Below, piece by piece: positions 16,284-52,656 of a DNA stretch of 64,000 nt (position 1 is the first letter of the stretch; each line of letters starts with the position of its first letter). The notes beneath the pieces were generated by a model. That model was not told where the DNA came from. It did not search any database and saw only the letters and a program-made list of their open reading frames with translations. Where the stretch lies: NCBI GenBank assembly GCA_030653365.1, contig JAURZL010000019.1, positions 1 through 64,000 on the forward strand. The letters are read 5' to 3'. Origin of the DNA: Anaerolineaceae bacterium. GTDB taxonomy: Bacteria > Chloroflexota > Anaerolineae > Anaerolineales > Anaerolineaceae. A program made the translations under genes and the position numbers.

Positions 16284-16408
16284 CTATTAACCAATTTTTC
16301 CTGGTGAAAATATTAATTTAATAGGAGGTGCAGTTTATCCCAACAAATACCTTTGTTAATTTCCAAAATACCAAATTAAAATCAAATTACCAAATTAGGA
16401 GGAAGAAG

Positions 16409-18154
16409 ATGAGATCTAAATCGCTTTTTAGCGTAGTATTTATGTTACTGGTTGTCAGTATGCTGGTGGTTGCCTGTCAACCTGCAGCCCCTGTTGCACC
16501 AGCAGAACCTGCTGCACCAGCTGAACCCGCTGCACCAGCTGAACCCGCTGCACCAGTTGAACCTGCCGCGCCAGCCGAACCAGCTGCACCTGTTGAACCA
16601 GCCATGGATTTCGAACCAATGTCTTTAGCGGCCCCCGATTGTGAATATGGTGGGCTAATCAAAGAAATTGCTGCCCTGGATGAATTCACAGTTCAATTCT
16701 CCATGTGTGCACCAGATCCGGCGTTCCCATCCAAAGCAGCATTCTCAGCATTCTCCATTCAACCAAAAGAGTGGATTGAGACTGCAATGGAATCACGTGA
16801 AATCCTTGAAAAACCAGTTGGTACCGGTCCTTATGTCCTCGATTCCTGGAACCGTGGTGACAGTATGGTCTTCAAGAAATTTGCAGATTACTGGGGAACC
16901 CCGGCGGTTGCTGATACACTCGTATTCCGCTGGACATCCGAAGGTGCCGCCCGATTACTCGAACTTCAATCCGGTACTGTAGATGGTATTGACAATCCAT
17001 CTCCCGATGATTTCGATGTCATCTCTGCAGATTCCAATTTAACCCTGTATGAACGTGAAGCATTGAACATTTTCTATGTTGGTTTCACCAATTTCTTCCC
17101 ACCATTTGATGATGTTCGTGTTCGTCAGGCTGTTGCACTGGGTCTAAATCGAGACCGCCTGGTCGATAACTTCTATCCAGCAGGTTCTGAAGTTGCCAGT
17201 CACTTTACCCCCTGCGCTATCCCCAATGGTTGTGCTGGAGAGGATTGGTATGAATTCAATTTAGAAGCTGCCAAAACCCTTCTGGCTGATGCCGGATATC
17301 CAAATGGCTTCGATACCAAGATTTTCTATCGTGATGTATTCCGCGGATACCTGCCAGAACCTGGTCTGGTTGCCACTGATATTCAGGCGCAATTAAAAGA
17401 CCTGGGCATTAATGCTGAAATCGTTGTGATGGAATCTGGTGCTTTCCTGGAGGAATCTTCTGCTGGTCGTCTGGACGGAATCCACCTGCTTGGTTGGGGT
17501 GCTGACTATCCTCATGTAACCAATTTCCTGGATTACCACTTTGCCAAGAATAATTTACAATTTGGTGAACCATTCCCAGAAATTTTTGAGACACTGGAAG
17601 CAGCTTCTCAGATTGCTGATCCAGGTGAAGCTGAGCCGCTGTATGTGGAAGCTAACAACAAGATTAAAGAACTCGTGCCAATGGTTCCGATTGCTCATGG
17701 TGGTTCTGCTACCGCTTTCAAAGCTGAGGTTGCTGGTGCACACTCCAGCCCCTTGAGCAATGAATTCATGGCAGTTGTTGACCCAGCTGGTCGCGATACC
17801 CTGGTCTGGATGCAGAATGCTGAACCGATTTCCCTGTACTGCAATGATGAAACCGATGGTGAATCACTGCGTGCCTGTGAACAGGTTCTCGAATCTCTGC
17901 TCTCTTACGAAGTTGGCGCTACCGCTGTTCAGCCCGGTTTAGCCACCTCCTGTGATCCGAACGACGATTTGACTGTTTGGACATGCAATCTTCGTCAAGG
18001 CGTGAAATTCCACGATGGTTCCAGCCTGGATGCTAATGATGTTGTGATGTCCTGGATTGTCGCCTGGGATGCTTCCAACCCATTACATATTGGTAACACT
18101 GGTGCTTTCGAATATTTCACCTATCTTTGGTGGAACCTGTTGAATGCTGAATAA
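16409..18154 (+). CDS. Peptide ABC transporter binding lipoprotein, circularly permuted family-5 fold
   Basis: The protein (581 residues) has a lipoprotein signal (LLVVSMLVVAC, Cys23), an Ala/Glu/Pro repeat linker (about residues 24-66), then SBP family 5 elements in rotated order. GTGPYVLDSWNRGDS is at 138-152 and FDDVRVRQAVALGLNRDR at 233-250. The segment normally near the N-terminus, NLRQGVKFHDGS, comes only at about 526-537, close to the end. In ordinary OppA-like proteins that segment precedes GTGPY. A GGAGGAAGAAG ribosome-binding site selects the ATG at 16409. It is followed by both permeases and both ATPases of an importer, so a role in capturing peptides or similar solutes is likely. 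Confidence 0.85.
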   Translation: MRSKSLFSVVFMLLVVSMLVVACQPAAPVAPAEPAAPAEPAAPAEPAAPVEPAAPAEPAAPVEPAMDFEPMSLAAPDCEYGGLIKEIAALDEFTVQFSMCAPDPAFPSKAAFSAFSIQPKEWIETAMESREILEKPVGTGPYVLDSWNRGDSMVFKKFADYWGTPAVADTLVFRWTSEGAARLLELQSGTVDGIDNPSPDDFDVISADSNLTLYEREALNIFYVGFTNFFPPFDDVRVRQAVALGLNRDRLVDNFYPAGSEVASHFTPCAIPNGCAGEDWYEFNLEAAKTLLADAGYPNGFDTKIFYRDVFRGYLPEPGLVATDIQAQLKDLGINAEIVVMESGAFLEESSAGRLDGIHLLGWGADYPHVTNFLDYHFAKNNLQFGEPFPEIFETLEAASQIADPGEAEPLYVEANNKIKELVPMVPIAHGGSATAFKAEVAGAHSSPLSNEFMAVVDPAGRDTLVWMQNAEPISLYCNDETDGESLRACEQVLESLLSYEVGATAVQPGLATSCDPNDDLTVWTCNLRQGVKFHDGSSLDANDVVMSWIVAWDASNPLHIGNTGAFEYFTYLWWNLLNAE

Positions 18155-18240: not shown

Positions 18241-19320
18241 ATGATACAGTACACTATTCGCCGTTTATTAATGGCTATTCCGGTTCTTTTGGGTATTTTA
18301 ATTGTTACGTTTGCCCTGGCTCGTATGATCCCGGGAGAACCCTGTAAAGCCATGCTGGGGGAAAAAGCTACACCAGAAGTTTGTGAACGCTTTACTATCC
18401 GATACGGATTGGATAAACCCATAACGACCCAATTTGGCATTTACATGCTTGATATTCTTAGTGGTGATTTCGGGCAATCGATCCGGTTCAGCCGTCCGGT
18501 GACAATCATCTTGATAGAACGGTTACCACTAACAATGGAATTAGGAACGATTGCATTACTCATTGCGATTTCAATAGGAATCCCGGCTGGAATTTTATCC
18601 GCTGTAAAACGCAATTCCATTTGGGATGTGTTCACAATGATTGGTGCAAATATCGGTGTTTCCATGCCGGTTTATTGGTTGGGGTTAATGTTACAGTTTT
18701 TATTCGCTATTTTATTAAAAGATACATTTTTACAATTAGCACCTTCAGGAAGATTGGCACCTGGATTGGTAGCCATTCCCTTTTATGAGATTTGGGGATG
18801 GGAACTGGCAAAAGAAACGATTGGATATCATTTTCTTGAATTTTTCTCCAATATGTACATATTCAATTCGCTGATTACCGGAGATTGGAAATTACTGGGT
18901 GATGCAGTTAAACATATGATCATGCCTGCAATGGCCCTCAGCACCATTCCTCTGGCGATTATTGCCCGTATGACGCGCTCGAGTATGTTGGAAGTGATGA
19001 AACAGGATTACATACGCACCGCACGCTCTAAAGGGCTTAAACAAAACAAGGTTGTATTAAAACATGCCTTCCGCAATGCTTTATTACCGGTTGTGACGAT
19101 CATCGGTTTGCAGGTTGGAACTATTTTTGCCGGGGCGGTATTAACTGAATCAATTTTCGGTCTGGCAGGGGTGGGAAGAATCTTATTTGAAGCGATTACC
19201 GCACGTGATTATCCAATCATCCAGGCATTTACTGTGGTGATTGCTGCGGGTTATGTTTTTATTAACCTGGTCGTTGATTTATCGTACGTTTTTATTGATC
19301 CCCGGATTCGATTGGACTAG
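18241..19320 (+). CDS. Peptide ABC transporter permease (DppB/OppB type)
   Basis: The 359-residue membrane protein begins MIQYTIRRLLMAIPVLLGIL and has the OppB-type start, TM segments, and the cytoplasmic EAA loop near residue 270 (YIRTARSKGLKQNKVVLKHAFRNALLPV). The region after TM1 reads RMIPGEPCKAMLGEKATPEVCERF, typical of the family, with two extra cysteines. It pairs with the OppC-type permease three bases downstream to form the channel. Confidence 0.93.
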   Translation: MIQYTIRRLLMAIPVLLGILIVTFALARMIPGEPCKAMLGEKATPEVCERFTIRYGLDKPITTQFGIYMLDILSGDFGQSIRFSRPVTIILIERLPLTMELGTIALLIAISIGIPAGILSAVKRNSIWDVFTMIGANIGVSMPVYWLGLMLQFLFAILLKDTFLQLAPSGRLAPGLVAIPFYEIWGWELAKETIGYHFLEFFSNMYIFNSLITGDWKLLGDAVKHMIMPAMALSTIPLAIIARMTRSSMLEVMKQDYIRTARSKGLKQNKVVLKHAFRNALLPVVTIIGLQVGTIFAGAVLTESIFGLAGVGRILFEAITARDYPIIQAFTVVIAAGYVFINLVVDLSYVFIDPRIRLD

Positions 19321-19322
19321 CC

Positions 19323-20264
19323 ATGGCACCTGTAACTTTATCGAATGAACCTCAAAAAGACTACCGTTCGAACAGCTTGTGGCGATTAACTTTACGAAGA
19401 ATATTACGCCAACGAAATGCTGTACTTGGTCTGGTGATATTAACTTTTCTGGTTTTCATGGCTGTTTTTGCTGACGTGATTGCTCCTTATGAACCAACAC
19501 AGGTATTAATTGGTCTGGAAGAAGGAATTAAGAAACGTCAGCCGCCATGTATTCATCTTTTTGGTTGTCCAAAAGATCAACCCCAGCATATTATGGGTGT
19601 TGATGGCAATGTGCGTGACCAATTCAGCCGGGTTGTGCATGGATCACGCATTTCCTTGATGATTGGTTTTACCACTGTTGGATTTGCTATCATCATTGGA
19701 ACAATATTAGGAGCCATATCCGGATTTTTTGGTGGCTGGGTGGATAATGTGATCATGCGTATTCTGGATGTATTGATGGCATTTCCCTCATTACTTCTGG
19801 CAATCACGATTGTTTCGGTGTTAGGGCCGGGGTTGCAAAATGCATTGCTTGCCATTGCGATTGTTACCATACCTGTATATGCAAGAGTGGTACGTGCCAG
19901 CGTACTCTCCATTAAAGAGATGCCTTATGTGGCTGCTTCACGAGCTCTGGGTGGAAATTCAATACATATTCTCTTGAATCGGGTATTGCCGAATGCCATA
20001 CCACCGCTGATTGTGACCGGAACATTGGGAATTGGTACTGCAATTCTGGATGCTGCTGCTTTGTCCTTCCTGGGGTTGGGGGCACAACCTCCTATGCCGG
20101 AATGGGGAACCATGTTAGGCAGTGAAAGAAATCAGGTGTTCACTGCACCCCACCTGGTCTTCTACCCTGGTATTGCGATTATGTTGACCGTGCTGTCATT
20201 CAACCTGTTGGGTGATGGTTTACGTGATGCGATTGACCCTCGCCTGGGACAGACCCAAAACTAG
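19323..20264 (+). CDS. Peptide ABC transporter permease (DppC/OppC type)
   Basis: The 313-residue protein has the OppC N-terminal span (RNAVLGLVILTFLVFMAVFADVIAPYEP), the GVDGNVRDQFSRVVHGSRIS segment that corresponds to the usual GTDxxGRD motif, and the EAA loop (PYVAASRALGGNSIHILLNRVLPNA). It starts two bases after the upstream permease stop. Length is normal for the family. Confidence 0.93.
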   Translation: MAPVTLSNEPQKDYRSNSLWRLTLRRILRQRNAVLGLVILTFLVFMAVFADVIAPYEPTQVLIGLEEGIKKRQPPCIHLFGCPKDQPQHIMGVDGNVRDQFSRVVHGSRISLMIGFTTVGFAIIIGTILGAISGFFGGWVDNVIMRILDVLMAFPSLLLAITIVSVLGPGLQNALLAIAIVTIPVYARVVRASVLSIKEMPYVAASRALGGNSIHILLNRVLPNAIPPLIVTGTLGIGTAILDAAALSFLGLGAQPPMPEWGTMLGSERNQVFTAPHLVFYPGIAIMLTVLSFNLLGDGLRDAIDPRLGQTQN

Positions 20265-20280
20265 AATGGAGATCACAAAA

Positions 20281-21303
20281 ATGTTTACTGATACAAAACC
20301 CATTCTCAAGATCAAAGGTCTTCAGACATATTTTTACACGGATGATGGTGTGGTTAAGGCTGTTGATGGCGTTGATCTGGTTCTTCATGCCGGCGAAGTG
20401 TTGGGGCTGGTAGGCGAATCAGGTTGTGGCAAAAGTGTAACATCATTTTCTATCATGCGATTGGTGGATGCTCCCGGAAAAATAGTTGGCGGAGAAATTC
20501 TCTTCGAAGATCGTGATTTACTCAAACTTGATGATGAAGGTATGCAGGCTGTGCGTGGAAATCATATTTCAATGATATTTCAACAACCACAATCCAGCCT
20601 GAATCCGGTTTTTACGGTGGGGGATCAGATTGTTGAGATCCTACAAATTCATACCAACTATGATAAAAAACAAGCCTGGGAACGGACAGTTGAGTTATTA
20701 TCGTTGGTGGGAATCCCCGATGCAGCCCGAAAAGCCAAAGCCTATCCGCATGAAATGTCGGGTGGACAGGCGCAGCGTGTAATGATCGCGATGGCTTTGG
20801 CTTTAAATCCACAAATCTTGATTGCAGATGAACCTACAACAGCATTAGATGTGACCATTCAGGCGCAAATTCTGGATCTGATGCGTGGTTTGCGTGCCAA
20901 GATCAATACAGCAGTTGTGCTGATTACCCATGATCTGGGTGTGATCGCCGAGATGGCTGATCGGGTAGCAGTAATGTATGCCGGGCAGATCGTGGAAGAG
21001 AGTGATGTTGTCACAATCTTTGATAAACCCATGCATCCTTACACGGTTGGTCTGATTGCCTCAGTTCCGGTTCTGGGGCAGGTAAAAGAAGAACTGGATA
21101 CAATCCCTGGAAATGTGCCCAATCTGGTCAATTTGCCACCAGGATGCCGTTTTGCATCACGCTGTAAATCCAGAGAGGAACATCATCTGGAAGAAATCTG
21201 TGATCAAAAGAATCCTGATTTACTGCAGGTGGAAAAGGGTCATACCGTACGCTGCTGGTTATATCAAAACACTGATGGTCATCAAGCACCAATTCAGATA
21301 TAG
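20281..21303 (+). CDS. Peptide ABC transporter ATPase (DppD/OppD type)
   Basis: The product (340 residues) has Walker A GESGCGKS, signature MSGGQAQR, Walker [14 protein letters not shown], and the switch His in LITHDLGV. The C-terminal oligopeptide domain with CRFASRCKS and further Cys residues, probable iron-sulfur or metal site, is present. TGGAG lies about ten bases upstream of the ATG at 20281; a longer reading would overlap the preceding gene. It forms the heterodimeric motor with the next gene. Confidence 0.93.
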
Positions 21304-21321: not shown

Positions 21322-22323
21322 ATGATCGAACTAACAAAAACTGAATCCGAAAATCTGATTGATGTAAAAAATCTGGTCAAATACTATCCAGTTAAAGGCG
21401 GTCTATTTAAACGGGTGGTCGCTCAGGTCAAAGCGGTTGATAATATCAGTTTCTCCATCCGCAAAGGCGAGACTTTGGGACTGGTTGGCGAATCGGGTTG
21501 TGGAAAAACGACCGTTGGACACACCATGCTGGGATTGTTACCGCACACCAGTGGATCTGTTATATACAACAACACCAACGTCTTTGATCTTAATGCAGCC
21601 GAATCCAAACTAATGCGACGTTATATGCAAATTGTGTTTCAGGATCCTTATGCTTCCCTGGATCCCCGTTTACCGATTGGCGATTCGATTGCAGAAGGCC
21701 TCAAAATTCACAAGATCGGGAACAATCAAGAGCGCTATGAGATGGTTTTGGAAGCATTGAGAGATGTTGGTCTGGAAGAATACCATGCCATGCGTTACCC
21801 GCACGAATTCTCTGGTGGGCAACGGCAACGCATCGGTATTGCACGCGCTTTGGTGATGAAGCCTAAATTTATCGTGTTGGATGAACCAGTGTCAGCGTTG
21901 GATGTATCAATCCAGGCGCAGGTTCTAAACATCCTGCGAGATTTACAGCGGAATTTTGGACTGACGTACTTGTTTGTGGCACATAATCTGGCTGTTGTCG
22001 AGCATATTTCCGACCGGGTTGCGGTTATGTATCTGGGCAAAATCGTGGAATTGGCTGATCGTAAAGAATTGTTCAATCGTCCGGTGCATCCATATACAAA
22101 CGCTTTGATGTCAGCTATCCCGATCCCTGATCCGAAGTTGAAACGTGAAAGGACCATTCTGCAGGGTGATGTTCCCAGCCCACTGAATCCTCCTAAAGGC
22201 TGCCGCTTTCACCCGCGCTGTCCCTTTGCCAAACCGGAATGTTCTGCAAGTGAACCTGAACTACGCGAGGTGATCCCAAATCACTTTGTTGCCTGTCACT
22301 ACGCAGAGGATTTTATCAAGTAA
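21322..22323 (+). CDS. Peptide ABC transporter ATPase (DppF/OppF type)
   Basis: The 333-residue ATPase has Walker A GESGCGKT, signature FSGGQRQR, Walker B FIVLDEPVSALDVS and the switch His in VAHNL. The C-terminal Cys cluster reads GCRFHPRCPFAKPECS. It completes a five-gene importer and is followed by a terminator. Its start is 18 bases after the preceding ATPase. Confidence 0.93.
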   Translation: MIELTKTESENLIDVKNLVKYYPVKGGLFKRVVAQVKAVDNISFSIRKGETLGLVGESGCGKTTVGHTMLGLLPHTSGSVIYNNTNVFDLNAAESKLMRRYMQIVFQDPYASLDPRLPIGDSIAEGLKIHKIGNNQERYEMVLEALRDVGLEEYHAMRYPHEFSGGQRQRIGIARALVMKPKFIVLDEPVSALDVSIQAQVLNILRDLQRNFGLTYLFVAHNLAVVEHISDRVAVMYLGKIVELADRKELFNRPVHPYTNALMSAIPIPDPKLKRERTILQGDVPSPLNPPKGCRFHPRCPFAKPECSASEPELREVIPNHFVACHYAEDFIK

Positions 22324-47510: not shown

Positions 47511-47723
47511 GTGAATTTGAATGAATTAGCAACCTGATAGCTTGTTTTCCTGTGCAATTAATAATTGTTGTTGGCTAAATAAGCAATTCAAAAACCATGG
47601 TTCTTATAAATAATTAAATTAATGGTCAATGAATTTCCATCCTATATCCGCAGTGGTTTGCCTAAGGGAAGGGCAATGATTATAATGGAAAGGAAGTTAG
47701 CCAATTCCTATGAGGAGGAGACA

Positions 47724-49673
47724 TTGAATTCTACCCGCCTGAAACGGATATCCTTTTTGCTTTTGATTTTCTTGTTCCTATTAAGTGCCTGCCAATCGCA
47801 GACAATACCGACAACAACCATTCAACCTGTGAATCTCACACCTGAAATGGTTGAGCCTACATCTGACCCTACACCTGAACCACCGAAAAGCCTTGTAATA
47901 TGCATCGGTGAAGAACCGTTAACCCTGTATCCCTATGGTGGTAACAGCCGCGGAATGTGGTCAATCCTGGAAGCAATCTATGATGGTCCGGTGGATACGG
48001 TGAATTTTATGCCTGAACCGGTGATTTTGGAAAAGATTCCGGATTATGAAAGCGGTGATGCTCAAATTAATACGGTTGCTGTAAAGGTTGGCGATCGCAT
48101 AGTGGATGCTGGTGGATCTGTTGTGACGTTATTAGCAGGAGTGAATTTTTTACCAGCTGGTTGTAATGATAAAAGTTGCGCTGTGGAATGGGATGGAGAG
48201 TCAACAGTTGAAATGGAACAACAGATTCTGCGTTATCAACTCAAACCCGGTCTGTTGTGGTCAGATGGCGAAGATCTAACCGCCAATGATTCTTTTTATT
48301 CTTTTCAGATCGCTTCTGATCCAGCCTCCCCAGTAAACACCTATTATTTAGAACGAACTGCCAGTTATGAAGCCTTTGATGCGGTACAAACGCAATGGAT
48401 TGGTCTGCCAGGTTTCATCACTCCCCATTTAGGAGATCTATTCTGGTTACCTTTGCCACAACATGCCTGGGGAGAGTTGAGTGCGGAAGAATTATTAACA
48501 GCAGTCGATTCAACACTAAAACCTTTGGGCTGGGGACCTTATCAGATTGATAACTGGGTCGCTGGTAGTCATATTGAGCTGAGCAGAAATACAAATTATT
48601 TTCGAGCTGATGAAGGTTTGCCAAAATTTGAAAAACTGGTTTTCCGCTTTTTAGGACCGAACGCGGATAGTAATCTAAAGGCTTTAGAGATTAATGAATG
48701 TGATTTTGTGGATGCCACAGCAGAACTGGACCAACAATTGGTGGACGTGGTCGAACGCAGTAATTTGGGAGAAATAAACGCATATTTTGGTCAGGGACCA
48801 GAATGGGAGCATCTGGATTTTGGGATTGTTCCATCCAGTTATGATGATGGCTATCAATTTGATGTTGATCGGCCGGATTGGTTTGGAGACGTTCGCATGC
48901 GAACAGCCATTGCCTATTGCAGTGACCGTTTTGGGATTGCCAACCGTTACTTTGTTAATCGATCTGCTGTCCCTGCCAGTTTCTTCCCGCCTTCCCACCC
49001 AGCGTACAATGGCAGCCTGACGACAATCCCATATGATGTTGATATGGGCAATTTGCTCTTGGATCAGATTGGCTGGCGTGATGATGACAATAATCCCTCC
49101 ACACCACGCATATCCCTCGGTGTTCAAAATGTTCCGGATGGAACGCCATTGGTTTTGGATTTGGTCTCAACCCAATCTGAATTGAGACAACTGGTCTCCG
49201 CAGACCTGGCACGCTCGCTGATGGCTTGTGGAATAGAGACTGTTATGCAGCATGTATTGCCCACGGAGCTCTATGCACCTGGACCAGAAGGAGTTATGTT
49301 TGGGAGAAACTTTGATCTGGCGCAATTTACCTGGCAGGCTGGTCGTTCCAACCCATGCTTTTTATATACCAGTGACCAGATCCCCAACGCAGAGAACTTA
49401 TGGGTGGGTGCAAATATTACTGGATTTTCAAGTGAAATATACGATCAAACATGCCAGTTGGCACAAAGAGCTGCTTTGGATGACAGTGAGTCTCATGCTG
49501 AAATTCAACGGATCTTTAATGAAGACTTGCCAGTATTACCGCTATATTACCAGTTAAAAATTGCAGCAAGCCGCCCGGATTTTTGCGGTTTTAATGCGAT
49601 CGATGTTAGTGGACGCAGTGTATTATACGAGCTTGAAGGCTTTGGGTATGGAGAAGTCTGTGTAAATCCATAA
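47724..49673 (+). CDS. Family-5 peptide-binding lipoprotein, ordinary domain order
   Basis: The product (649 residues) has a lipoprotein signal (LLLIFLFLLSACQ) and a short Thr/Pro linker. The family-5 elements come in the usual order: LVICIGEEPLTLYPYGG, YQLKPGLLWSDGEDLTAND, LGWGPYQIDNWV, FGDVRMRTAIAYCSDR. The TTG at 47724 has GAGGAGG a few bases upstream; a longer reading adds an unlikely pre-signal tail. It stands alone; the downstream importer has its own promoter and binding protein. Its order makes it a useful comparison for the rotated proteins at 16409 and 50032. Confidence 0.85.
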   Translation: MNSTRLKRISFLLLIFLFLLSACQSQTIPTTTIQPVNLTPEMVEPTSDPTPEPPKSLVICIGEEPLTLYPYGGNSRGMWSILEAIYDGPVDTVNFMPEPVILEKIPDYESGDAQINTVAVKVGDRIVDAGGSVVTLLAGVNFLPAGCNDKSCAVEWDGESTVEMEQQILRYQLKPGLLWSDGEDLTANDSFYSFQIASDPASPVNTYYLERTASYEAFDAVQTQWIGLPGFITPHLGDLFWLPLPQHAWGELSAEELLTAVDSTLKPLGWGPYQIDNWVAGSHIELSRNTNYFRADEGLPKFEKLVFRFLGPNADSNLKALEINECDFVDATAELDQQLVDVVERSNLGEINAYFGQGPEWEHLDFGIVPSSYDDGYQFDVDRPDWFGDVRMRTAIAYCSDRFGIANRYFVNRSAVPASFFPPSHPAYNGSLTTIPYDVDMGNLLLDQIGWRDDDNNPSTPRISLGVQNVPDGTPLVLDLVSTQSELRQLVSADLARSLMACGIETVMQHVLPTELYAPGPEGVMFGRNFDLAQFTWQAGRSNPCFLYTSDQIPNAENLWVGANITGFSSEIYDQTCQLAQRAALDDSESHAEIQRIFNEDLPVLPLYYQLKIAASRPDFCGFNAIDVSGRSVLYELEGFGYGEVCVNP

Positions 49674-49903: not shown

Positions 49904-50031
49904 ATGAAATTTAATGTTGAGGGATGACGCCACGTTTAAAGCCAATAAAAAGCGGTTATTGGCAATTTGTGGTATTTAGTCAGCACAAAAAATCATCTCG
50001 TTCGATCCAAATTTTTAAGGAGGAGAATAGA

Positions 50032-52656
50032 ATGAAACGAAATACCCTTATGTTGTTAGTAGGTATGGTCATCATTGCCAGTATGGTATTGGCAGCATGT
50101 CAACCTGCTCCAGCTCCAGTTGTGGAAGAACCCGCTCCTGCAGAGCCAGTCGTAGTGGAACCAACCGCGGTTCCAGAAGAACCAGTTGAAGAACCAATGG
50201 AACCAACTGTAGAACCGACACCAGAACCAGTTCGTACCACCCGTGTGGGTGGCTGGCTGGATGAAATTGTAGTGTCTGTTGTGGATAGTGCATCCGCTGT
50301 AACCCAGATTCAAGCTGGCGCAATCGATATTTATGCCGCTGGTATGTCATCAGATGCATTGCCTGAAATTGAAGCTGCTGGACTGGATTATGCACAAAGT
50401 AATGGCCTATACTACGAATTAACTTTCAATGCCTATGGTCCATTCTTTGATCAATCCACTGGCGCAGTCAACCCCTTCTTCTATGCGAAAGCACGTGAAG
50501 CAATGAACTGGCTGGTTGACCGTGATTATATCAATCGCGAAGTTTACAATGGTGGTGCATTGCCAAAATTCTGGAGCATCATCACCAACATGCCTGACTA
50601 CACCAAAATGGCTGAAACTGTTCGTCGTTTGGAAGCAAAATATGCTTACAATCCTGAAGCAGCAGATGCTCAGATGGAAGAAGTCATGCTCGGTATTGAA
50701 GGTGTAACCAGAGGAACTGATGGTAAATACATGTTCGGTGGTGAGCAAGTCACCCTGATCTTCATCATCAGAACCGACTCTGATAAAACCCGTGTCCCGA
50801 TCGGTGATTACGTAGCCAACCAACTCGAAAGCATTGGTTTTGCAGTCGATCGCCAATACAAAACCTCATCAGAAGCCTCCCCCATCTGGGTGAGTGGCAA
50901 TGTTGCTGATGGTCTCTGGCATCTCTACACTGGTGCCTGGTCTGCCACCATTATTGACCGCGATGAGGGCGATAACTTCGAATTCTTTGATACCCCACAA
51001 TCCGCTTATGGTTTCTCATCCACATGGCAGGCATTTACATCCACCGCTTTAGGAACCCCTTATGGCGATCTGGCTGATAAATTAGCCTACAACAAATTTG
51101 AAACCATTGAAGAACGTGATGCCGCTATGGCTGAAATGCTTGAGTTAGCGCTAACCGAATCCATTCACGTCTGGTTGATTGATGGTAAGAACTTCACACC
51201 TTATCGAGAAGGTTTGGATGTTACTTATGATCTGGCAGCCGGCGTAGATGGTTCCATGATCTGGCCATACACCATCCGATTAACGGGTGAAGAAGGTGGT
51301 CAATTGAAGTGGGGTGCTCCCGACTTGTTTGTTGATCCCTGGAACCCGATTGCAGGCTCCAACTGGGCTTTTGATCAGGCGATTGGTCAAGCCACCTGGG
51401 GCGATGCTTACATGATCGATCCCCACACTGGTCTTTACTGGCCACAGCGCTTTGATCGTGCTGAAGTTACCATTCAAACAGGTTTACCGGTTGGTAAGAC
51501 ACTCGATTGGGTCGACCTGAAATTTGCAGACGAAATTGTTGTCCCTGAAGATGCGATTGTTGACTGGGACGCCGAAAATCAGGCATTCATCACCGCTGCT
51601 GAGAAATTCCCGGAAGGCACAACTGCCAAACGACAGAGCATTGTGTACTATCCAGCCGACCTTTTTGACACTGTCAAATGGCACGACGGTTCACCGCTTG
51701 ACCTGGGTGACTTCATCTATGCATGGATCATTACCCTGGATTTGGGTAAAGAAGCCTCCGCCATTTATGATGAAGCCTATGCCGCGAATGCAGAAGCACT
51801 TCTGGCTAACTACAAAGGTTTCAAAATTCTTTCTGAGAATCCTCTGACCATTGAAGTTTGGGGTGATTCCTATCAGACCGATGCTGAACTGAATATCACT
51901 ACCATGTGGCCTTCCTTCAGTTATGGTGAAGCTCCGTGGCATGTTTTAGCTATGGGTGCCCGTGCTGATGAAGCTGGTGAACTTGCCTTCTCAGGCGATA
52001 AAGCTGATGCTAAATCCACCGACACAGCCACCGTTGAGTGGTTCAGCCAGATTGGTGGTCCAAGTCTTGAGATCGTATCCAAATGGCTTGATACAAGCAT
52101 TGAAGAATCTTACATTCCTTACACGACTGTGCTGTCCGCTTTCATCACACCAGAAGAAGCTTTAGCTCGTTATGAGAATGCAAAAACCTTCTTTGCTGAA
52201 TATGGTCATTACAATATTGCTACAGGACCATACATCCTGAGCGAAGTATTCCTGACCGAAAAAATCGCAACCTTAATCCAGAATCCTGACTTCCCTGATT
52301 TATCTGATAAATGGGCACAATTTGGTGATCCAAAAGTTGCAACCATTGAACTAGAAGGTGAAGGCAGCGTGGTTTTGGGTGGCGAGATTGTCTTTGATGT
52401 CTACGTAACCTTCGATGGTGAACCCTACGAAGCTGACGAGATCAAAGAAGTCAAGGGCTTGCTCTATGATGCTACCGGCCTAATTGTCGCAGTAGTTGAA
52501 GGCGTTCTGGTAGAAGATGGTTACTACACCATCACCGTACCTGCAGATGTTTCTGCAGCTATGGAAGCCGGCGCCAGCAAGCTTGAAGCTGTGGTGGTTC
52601 CTTTCACTGTAGCTATTCCGTCCTTCGTTGCACTAGAATTTGTGACCGTCAAGTAG
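50032..52656 (+). CDS. Large peptide-binding lipoprotein, rotated family-5 fold with C-terminal beta domain
   Basis: The product (874 residues) has a lipoprotein signal (MVIIASMVLAAC) and a Pro/Glu/Val linker. It starts with segments normally found in the middle of the fold (WLDEIVVSVVDSASAVTQIQ at about 72; FFYAKAREAMNWLVDRDYI at about 150-170). The usual N-terminal segment comes later (LKWGAPDLFVDPWNP at about 425; VKWHDGSPLDLGDFIYAW at about 548). YNIATGPYIL follows only at about 726. A beta-sandwich-like domain ends the protein. The break lies after GTGPY, not before it as in the 16409 protein. GGAGGAG precedes ATG 50032. Confidence 0.85.
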   Translation: MKRNTLMLLVGMVIIASMVLAACQPAPAPVVEEPAPAEPVVVEPTAVPEEPVEEPMEPTVEPTPEPVRTTRVGGWLDEIVVSVVDSASAVTQIQAGAIDIYAAGMSSDALPEIEAAGLDYAQSNGLYYELTFNAYGPFFDQSTGAVNPFFYAKAREAMNWLVDRDYINREVYNGGALPKFWSIITNMPDYTKMAETVRRLEAKYAYNPEAADAQMEEVMLGIEGVTRGTDGKYMFGGEQVTLIFIIRTDSDKTRVPIGDYVANQLESIGFAVDRQYKTSSEASPIWVSGNVADGLWHLYTGAWSATIIDRDEGDNFEFFDTPQSAYGFSSTWQAFTSTALGTPYGDLADKLAYNKFETIEERDAAMAEMLELALTESIHVWLIDGKNFTPYREGLDVTYDLAAGVDGSMIWPYTIRLTGEEGGQLKWGAPDLFVDPWNPIAGSNWAFDQAIGQATWGDAYMIDPHTGLYWPQRFDRAEVTIQTGLPVGKTLDWVDLKFADEIVVPEDAIVDWDAENQAFITAAEKFPEGTTAKRQSIVYYPADLFDTVKWHDGSPLDLGDFIYAWIITLDLGKEASAIYDEAYAANAEALLANYKGFKILSENPLTIEVWGDSYQTDAELNITTMWPSFSYGEAPWHVLAMGARADEAGELAFSGDKADAKSTDTATVEWFSQIGGPSLEIVSKWLDTSIEESYIPYTTVLSAFITPEEALARYENAKTFFAEYGHYNIATGPYILSEVFLTEKIATLIQNPDFPDLSDKWAQFGDPKVATIELEGEGSVVLGGEIVFDVYVTFDGEPYEADEIKEVKGLLYDATGLIVAVVEGVLVEDGYYTITVPADVSAAMEAGASKLEAVVVPFTVAIPSFVALEFVTVK

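Follow-up and report, generated by a model that had tools for sequence, protein, structure and literature searches.

TpMglB-2 (Tp0684), as described in the available part of the report, is a natural circular permutant, tethered to the membrane, which belongs to a probable ABC importer and has kept its ligand binding; its authors propose it as a 'Type Ic / Cluster Bc' binding protein with relatives in other bacteria and raise tethering as a possible reason for the permutation (PMC4990184). It was the only natural permutation of a large two-lobed binding protein that our search, restricted to open-access literature, recovered, and the same search, mostly of titles and abstracts, found no permuted binding protein of family 5. 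Permuted binding proteins are already known, then, through TpMglB-2 and in cluster B; a family-5 case is, by this search, new, and its repeated permutation events are unusual. Here we analyze a stretch of 64,000 nucleotides from an Anaerolineaceae bacterium (the window), in which a 581-aa open reading frame, which we call P0001, encodes a family-5 (DppA/OppA-type) solute-binding lipoprotein whose chain is circularly permuted almost in full.

In the open reading frame list, P0001 runs from an ATG at 16409 to a stop at 18154, and an in-frame GTG upstream, at 16328, is a possible longer start. A 503-position profile built from 14 canonical-order relatives (of 17 canonical rows, L134 once and L135 twice were left out) matches the chain in two stretches in reversed order (Table 1), so that the ring is nearly complete: the cut lacks about 6 of the 503 positions and the join next to none. 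The Pfam family SBP_bac_5 behaves likewise: residues 81-382 match profile positions 62-365, and a second stretch, at 17927-18082 of the window, matches positions 2-53 with an E of 1.9e-14 on its own, the score of P0001 being 261.6 bits against a curated cut-off of 32.4. All 70 aligned members of the P0001 family match SBP_bac_5 at E 0.001. Among solved structures searched with phmmer, the order is reversed in all four chains with printed alignments; in HbpA (3tpa), P0001 residues 83-449 correspond to 130-502 and 481-577 to 26-127, and in Escherichia coli DppA (1dpe), 83-451 correspond to 123-498 and 494-571 to 33-116. As sequence matches, both reversed stretches are far beyond chance. Because the profile order is reversed along the chain, P0001 does not meet the canonical order and is a circularly permuted variant rather than a plain family-5 member: both parts are homologous to one canonical chain, nearly complete and swapped. 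A foreign C-terminal domain was considered and rejected, as profile and phmmer identify the last ~119 residues as an N-terminal part that belongs to the family itself. The four Pfam families that match P0001 at E up to 1 include none of the sugar-binding (cluster B) type; P0001 may work like the permuted binding protein TpMglB-2, yet it lies outside the cluster Bc family of that protein.

The earlier note had read a rotated order of family-5 elements from the translation alone, and Pfam, phmmer and the 14-relative profile all support it. GTGPYVLDSW and FDDVRVRQAV begin where it placed them, at residues 138 and 233, and NLRQGVKFHDGS begins at residue 527, against its estimate of about 526. Its proposed local search with SBP_bac_5 returned two stretches in reversed order; the single continuous profile match that would have refuted the reading was looked for in P0001 and not found. 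A lipobox and linker do precede the rotated part in the sequence, as it had said; VVAC fits the lipobox motif, and the signal peptide is inferred from the sequence alone.

Table 1 Coordinates of the permuted genes, their parts and the operon in the window
Feature	Position	Strand	Basis
P0001, 581-aa family-5 solute-binding lipoprotein, circularly permuted (type-1 rotation)	16409..18154	+	ORF, reversed profile matches, AF2
Putative signal peptide; lipobox Cys is residue 23	16409..16477	+	Sequence VVAC; C23 kept in at least 90% of 70 aligned relatives
Ala/Pro/Glu-rich linker, residues 24-65	16478..16603	+	Sequence; pLDDT 53-74 in blocks 21-70
First part of the chain, formerly middle and C-terminal: residues 66-460 = canonical 120-501	16604..17788	+	Canonical-order profile
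Join of old C-terminus to old N-terminus, residues 460-462	17786..17794	+	Model positions 501 and 2 (of 503) two residues apart
Old N-terminal part, now last: residues 462-580 = canonical 2-113	17792..18148	+	Canonical-order profile
DppB-type permease	18241..19320	+	PF00528, PF19300
DppC-type permease	19323..20264	+	PF00528, PF12911
Presumed DppD-type ATPase, ORF from first start codon, true start probably later	20212..21303	+	ORF sequence
Presumed DppF-type ATPase	21322..22323	+	ORF sequence
Second, independently permuted family-5 lipoprotein, 910 aa when counted from the first ATG; as a lipoprotein it probably starts at 50032	49924..52656	+	Pfam, profile, AF2

The permuted chain is predicted to fold. 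AlphaFold2, run with the 70-member alignment, gives one confident fold for P0001 (mean pLDDT 92.5, pTM 0.84), in which all ten-residue blocks from 71 to 580 exceed pLDDT 90 and residues 441-480, around the join, reach 95-97. The top Foldseek matches of the model are mostly DppA and GbpA chains (dipeptide-/glutathione-binding), aligned over 376-392 of ~507 columns with TMt 0.58-0.69, and OppA is also among the matches. The predicted fold is DppA/OppA-like by these matches, the best of which cover the larger part only, because the aligner is sequential and the chain is permuted; some other matches, with rmsd 6-9.5, extend over 430-490 columns. For the transposed part (462-580), the fold is supported by sequence profiles and the model only. 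R312 and D366 of P0001, each kept in at least 90% of the 70 relatives, align with R355 and D408 of DppA, which anchor its dipeptide. The title of PDB entry 8z1z names a DppA R383D+D436R mutant; R383 and D436 are the precursor numbers of these two residues, and the title fits an anchor role.

Purifying selection acts over the whole P0001 chain. By the Nei-Gojobori method, dN/dS for the whole gene is 0.043-0.045 against L010, L011 and L012 (~92-93% identical) and 0.084-0.108 against L013, L014 and L016 (~76-80% identical). Taken by part, it is 0-0.07 in the transposed segment, 0.04-0.09 in the larger one, 0-0.13 in the 31 codons of the join and up to 0.34 in signal peptide and linker. The ratios are rough, because synonymous sites approach saturation and 31 codons are few for the join. 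A dying gene was rejected, as dN/dS is well below 1.

The complete downstream operon from which the earlier note had inferred a working transporter is present (Table 1). Pfam identifies dppB and dppC; the two open reading frames that follow are presumably DppD- and DppF-type ATPases, an assignment inferred from their sequences alone. Elsewhere, dppB and dppC come next on the same strand in 66 of the 74 type-1 loci (of 121 loci) with at least 2.5 kb downstream, a count that replaces the 41 of 43 from a smaller set of loci with long flanks at either end. The permuted gene is present in tandem copies in L122, where dppBC come after the second copy, and in L226. At the remaining eight of the 74 type-1 loci (L062, L086, L096, L126, L127, L128, L129 and L130), no dppBC match was found downstream. 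L126-L130 are divergent type-1 relatives, 29-36% identical to P0001 and on one tree branch, and may use another permease or have another role, because dppBC matches are missing downstream.

The permuted order recurs across genomes. A search of genome contigs with six exact 8-residue patterns found 174 relatives, and each of the best 80, which were kept, aligns with P0001 without a break at the join. Two isolates, Thermanaerothrix daxensis GNS-1 (L050) and Bellilinea caldifistulae GOMI-1 (L053), are among these 80. By the names in their titles, the lineages of the best 80 of 174 all appear to be Chloroflexota; outside that phylum, the distribution was covered only by this pattern search of contigs, with 80 of the 174 relatives shown. 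Junction-spanning matches at E 1e-55 or better are present in 91 of 199 genomes evenly sampled from the class, one of which, G460, has a third rotation only. Related genomes give a match at E 1e-60 or better in 44 of 61 cases, G014 carrying another rotation and some matches being split over contigs. The G014 protein, in turn, is matched at 1e-60 or better in 38 of 301 genomes of an even phylum sample, 16 of them outside the class. By the canonical profile, the order is reversed in 111 of 112 distinct proteins, P0001 included, and the exception, L132, stops at a contig end. Because these 112 were preselected as co-linear with P0001 (a match over at least 440 residues in one stretch), the count shows consistency, not frequency.

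The ring has been cut in other places as well. In type 2, found in genus g8, positions 342-499 precede 3-336 in G014, with a similar arrangement in five others profiled; of the 16 genomes of the genus, 10 carry this rotation, one of them in partial form. Its operon order is D-F-A-B in all eight loci looked at, with C next in the seven whose contig continues. G357, of the same genus, has the type-1 order at the same D-F-A-B-C site in a protein 64-72% identical to that of G014, its gene being broken at an ambiguous stretch. The shared site can be viewed at L119:2277-4115 for the type-2 order and at L254:2903-4571 for the type-1 order of G357. Because two orders share one operon site in one genus, the step between two permutations could be studied directly. 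That the D-F-A-B-C order is tied to the second rotation was rejected, since in G357 a type-1 gene stands in an operon of this order.

In type 3 (G460 and G438), positions 269-500 come before 2-270, and B-C-D follow; this third cut of the ring, at canonical position ~269-270, lies in L223:1134-2927 and L224:1572-3602. Two assignments were discarded: G460 and G438:C900 as type 2, since the profile shows the third cut, and G239 as canonical order, since its open reading frame consists of an SBP_bac_3-like domain and a type-1 module. A further, independent permutation, with positions 324-502 before 2-343, lies inside an otherwise canonical branch, in G482 (L241), whose nearest tree relative, L120, is canonical (support 100). 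The same type occurs in G558 at 84% identity, giving 2 of 52 genomes of that family. In L241:3539-5503 and in L245, the first and last stretches overlap by ~20 model positions, perhaps as a duplication scar or through linker misalignment.

The tree holds 74 rotated or canonical sequences (48 type 1, 6 type 2, 2 type 3, L241 and 17 canonical), type-1 rows having been thinned at 72% identity and rows more than 99.5% identical to P0001, as well as L132, left out. It was made by a quick method with SH-aLRT support only and a midpoint root, and the program flagged long branches and rows of odd composition. Types 1, 2 and 3 lie together on one side of a branch with support 97; type 2 and type 3 make up two separate groups (100 for each) that lie among type-1 rows, and a single group of all type-1 rows is rejected (p-AU 5.3e-5). 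With a canonical start, the simplest history suggested by this quick tree, some of whose branches are long, would be one primary permutation, two re-cuts and one independent event.

A second family-5 protein of the window, of 910 aa, is permuted too; neither this gene nor the wider pattern had been mentioned in the earlier note. Pfam places positions 148-354 at 50257-50964 and then 25-152 at 51667-52350; the second stretch alone falls below the cut-off (23.6 bits), and the whole protein scores 94.7 bits. The profile of the 910-aa family aligns with Thermococcus OppA (7fi3) in reversed order, 488-742 corresponding to 63-307 and 81-302 to 329-570, and 7fi3 is the top Foldseek match of the AlphaFold2 model (pLDDT 80.2, pTM 0.76). 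Matches better than 1e-100 occur in 20 of 61 genomes, that of the window included; G016 and G014 carry an insertion, and in G001 and G030 the match is in pieces. When 251 genomes of the phylum were searched with a rotated query, 18 matched at 1e-30, and the later part precedes the earlier in all 18; no one-stretch canonical match to this query was found among these 18 genomes. We count this permutation as a separate event because its cut differs from those of types 1-3 and L241. The last ~100 residues of the 910-aa protein are predicted to be mostly strands, perhaps an extra beta domain, and its relatives at L149:184-3099 and L155:1501-4374 have a ~100-residue insertion mid-chain. Directly upstream of its gene, at 47622-49673, lies a canonical-order family-5 protein of 683 aa.

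The permuted module is often found behind other domains. Open frames exceed 750 aa in 39 of 94 rows of the class-genome matches across the join, a figure that somewhat overstates fusions because frames run from stop to stop (L181 is such an overlong frame). Among 122 locus entries, the domains ahead of the module are SBP_bac_3-like in 10, Peripla_BP_6-like in 3 and SBP_bac_1-like in 1, and Pfam confirms the front domains in all nine fused proteins submitted. In L226 the module is preceded by two Peripla_BP_6 stretches, and in L227 by Peripla_BP_6 and SBP_bac_3. The fused state needs at least eight changes on the tree. Fusion does not need permutation, because canonical-order L228, L229 and L230 carry such fusions. 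Putative lipoproteins with two to three binding domains of different families, permuted or canonical, include L226:4766-8776, L227:4621-8040, L056, L055, L125, L228 and L230. Another BPD_transp_1 permease gene lies downstream of dppBC in L055 and L102, and L102 also has a branched-chain-type ATPase upstream. That each domain of a fused protein feeds its own permease is a guess; with these multi-domain lipoproteins, one may ask whether several importers can share a single anchor. A different arrangement is found in L225 (1908-5165, 1086 aa), where a caspase-like domain, an FHA domain and a hydrophobic segment at ~511-531 are combined with a type-1 module; the same gene is present in L255. No dppB, C, D or F match was found on the whole 14,376-base contig of L225, and the protein resembles a receptor whose outer part would bind peptides.

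Taken as a whole, P0001 is in our judgment very probably a permuted DppA-like lipoprotein of ordinary fold that binds peptide for DppBC and arose by duplication, although the binding of peptide, its transfer to DppBC and the origin by duplication are inferred, without data on binding, transport or expression. In P0001, the old C-terminus runs straight into the old N-terminus, and new ends have been opened in the loop at canonical 113-120, with a new signal peptide, lipobox and linker placed before the new N-terminus. The chain would take the ordinary family-5 fold, close on a di- or oligopeptide and pass it to the DppBC permease, driven by DppDF, while the tether would now enter the loop at canonical 113-120 rather than the old N-terminus. 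The most likely origin would be tandem duplication, in-frame fusion and trimming of the outer ends. We count the tandem copies in L122 and L226 as support, and no fused tandem intermediate was found among the loci and genomes examined. A working transporter, like any advantage of the permutation, is inferred, not shown.

Two alternatives concern how the gene came about. Pieces of two normal genes could have been joined in the wrong order during sequencing or assembly, and the source genome, in 20 contigs and with several family-5 genes (8 places), would offer the material. Independent genomes have already refuted this idea, including the assembly join that the earlier note had named as a refuter: all 80 kept loci, the two isolates among them, show the order in a single stretch, 91 of 199 class genomes match across the join and dN/dS is far below 1 over the whole gene, which leaves an artefact next to no room. 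A biological chimera, in which a family-5 gene that had been cut short was joined by its end to the beginning of a neighboring paralogue, giving the two parts different origins, deserves more weight, as there are many family-5 paralogues per genome, tandem neighbors exist and the authors of TpMglB-2, in the available part of their report, raised a like possibility for that protein (PMC4990184). Against it, the ring is complete to within ~6 positions and the rotated sequences fall into a single permuted group (support 97); in the absence of part-by-part trees the donors could still have been close paralogues, and we regard a chimera as unlikely.

Others concern what the protein does and whether its order matters. 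The folded protein could be a sensor or scaffold rather than a transport component, as the caspase-like/FHA/permuted architecture of L225 and the 8 of 74 type-1 loci without dppBC downstream might suggest; we think this quite improbable, because dppBC follows in the window and at 66 of 74 loci and the peptide-anchor positions are kept. The permutation could also be neutral, the cut drifting without benefit among permissive loops once the ends had been joined, and on this question, which is compatible with a permuted DppA-like transport lipoprotein, we find the arguments evenly balanced. Close relatives differ in their cut, even within one genus at one operon site, and canonical-order relatives (L228, L230) also carry N-terminal fusions, so that fusion needs no permutation; by contrast, about half of the class genomes sampled have retained a match over the join, the family extends outside the class and separate events struck the same family.

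Returning to the permuted DppA-like lipoprotein, its observations could be joined in a broader and more tentative reading, to which we give somewhat less than an even chance. Evolution may have treated the family-5 protein of Chloroflexota as a closed ring that could be re-cut, with one primary permutation, two re-cuts in that clade, one independent event in a canonical branch and one in the 910-aa family. The choice of cut would set the tether point, so that the same module could be attached through a lipid, or could follow one or two other binding proteins that serve different transporters, or a membrane caspase-FHA receptor. More generally, a second fold class of binding proteins has been permuted repeatedly, with nearly complete parts, within one phylum. 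Relatives cut several times in different places provide a natural test of how freely protein ends can move, and a natural set of variants in which to examine the coupling of termini, tethering and lobe closure in ABC importers. They are also a warning for annotation, as domain tools give such genes as two partial matches.

Compared with solved proteins, P0001 shares its sequence family, predicted fold, anchor positions and operon partners with E. coli DppA and Haemophilus parasuis GbpA/HbpA (1dpp, 3m8u, 3tpa), from which it differs in chain order and in the place of the lipid tether, at ~27-29% identity. Thermococcus kodakarensis OppA (7fi3), the closest solved relative of the 910-aa protein, likewise differs from it in chain order. 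GlnPQ resembles the fused proteins in having more than one binding domain per chain; in the part of that work available, its two domains are linked to the permease (PMC8025302), whereas SBP_bac_3, Peripla_BP_6 and SBP_bac_1 domains precede the family-5 domain in the putative lipoproteins described here. The cpRAS / YRG circularly permuted GTPases, as far as the available part of their description goes, are unrelated to family 5 in fold and function but likewise present one fold in more than one natural permuted order (PMC2430557). TpMglB-2 and P0001 are both natural, circularly permuted and membrane-tethered, the tether of P0001 being predicted. According to its authors, in the portion of the report at hand, TpMglB-2 has a cluster B sugar-binding fold whose permuted part is poorly conserved (PMC4990184); P0001, in contrast, belongs to family 5 (cluster C), both of its parts are clearly homologous to that family and the cut has been made in several places.
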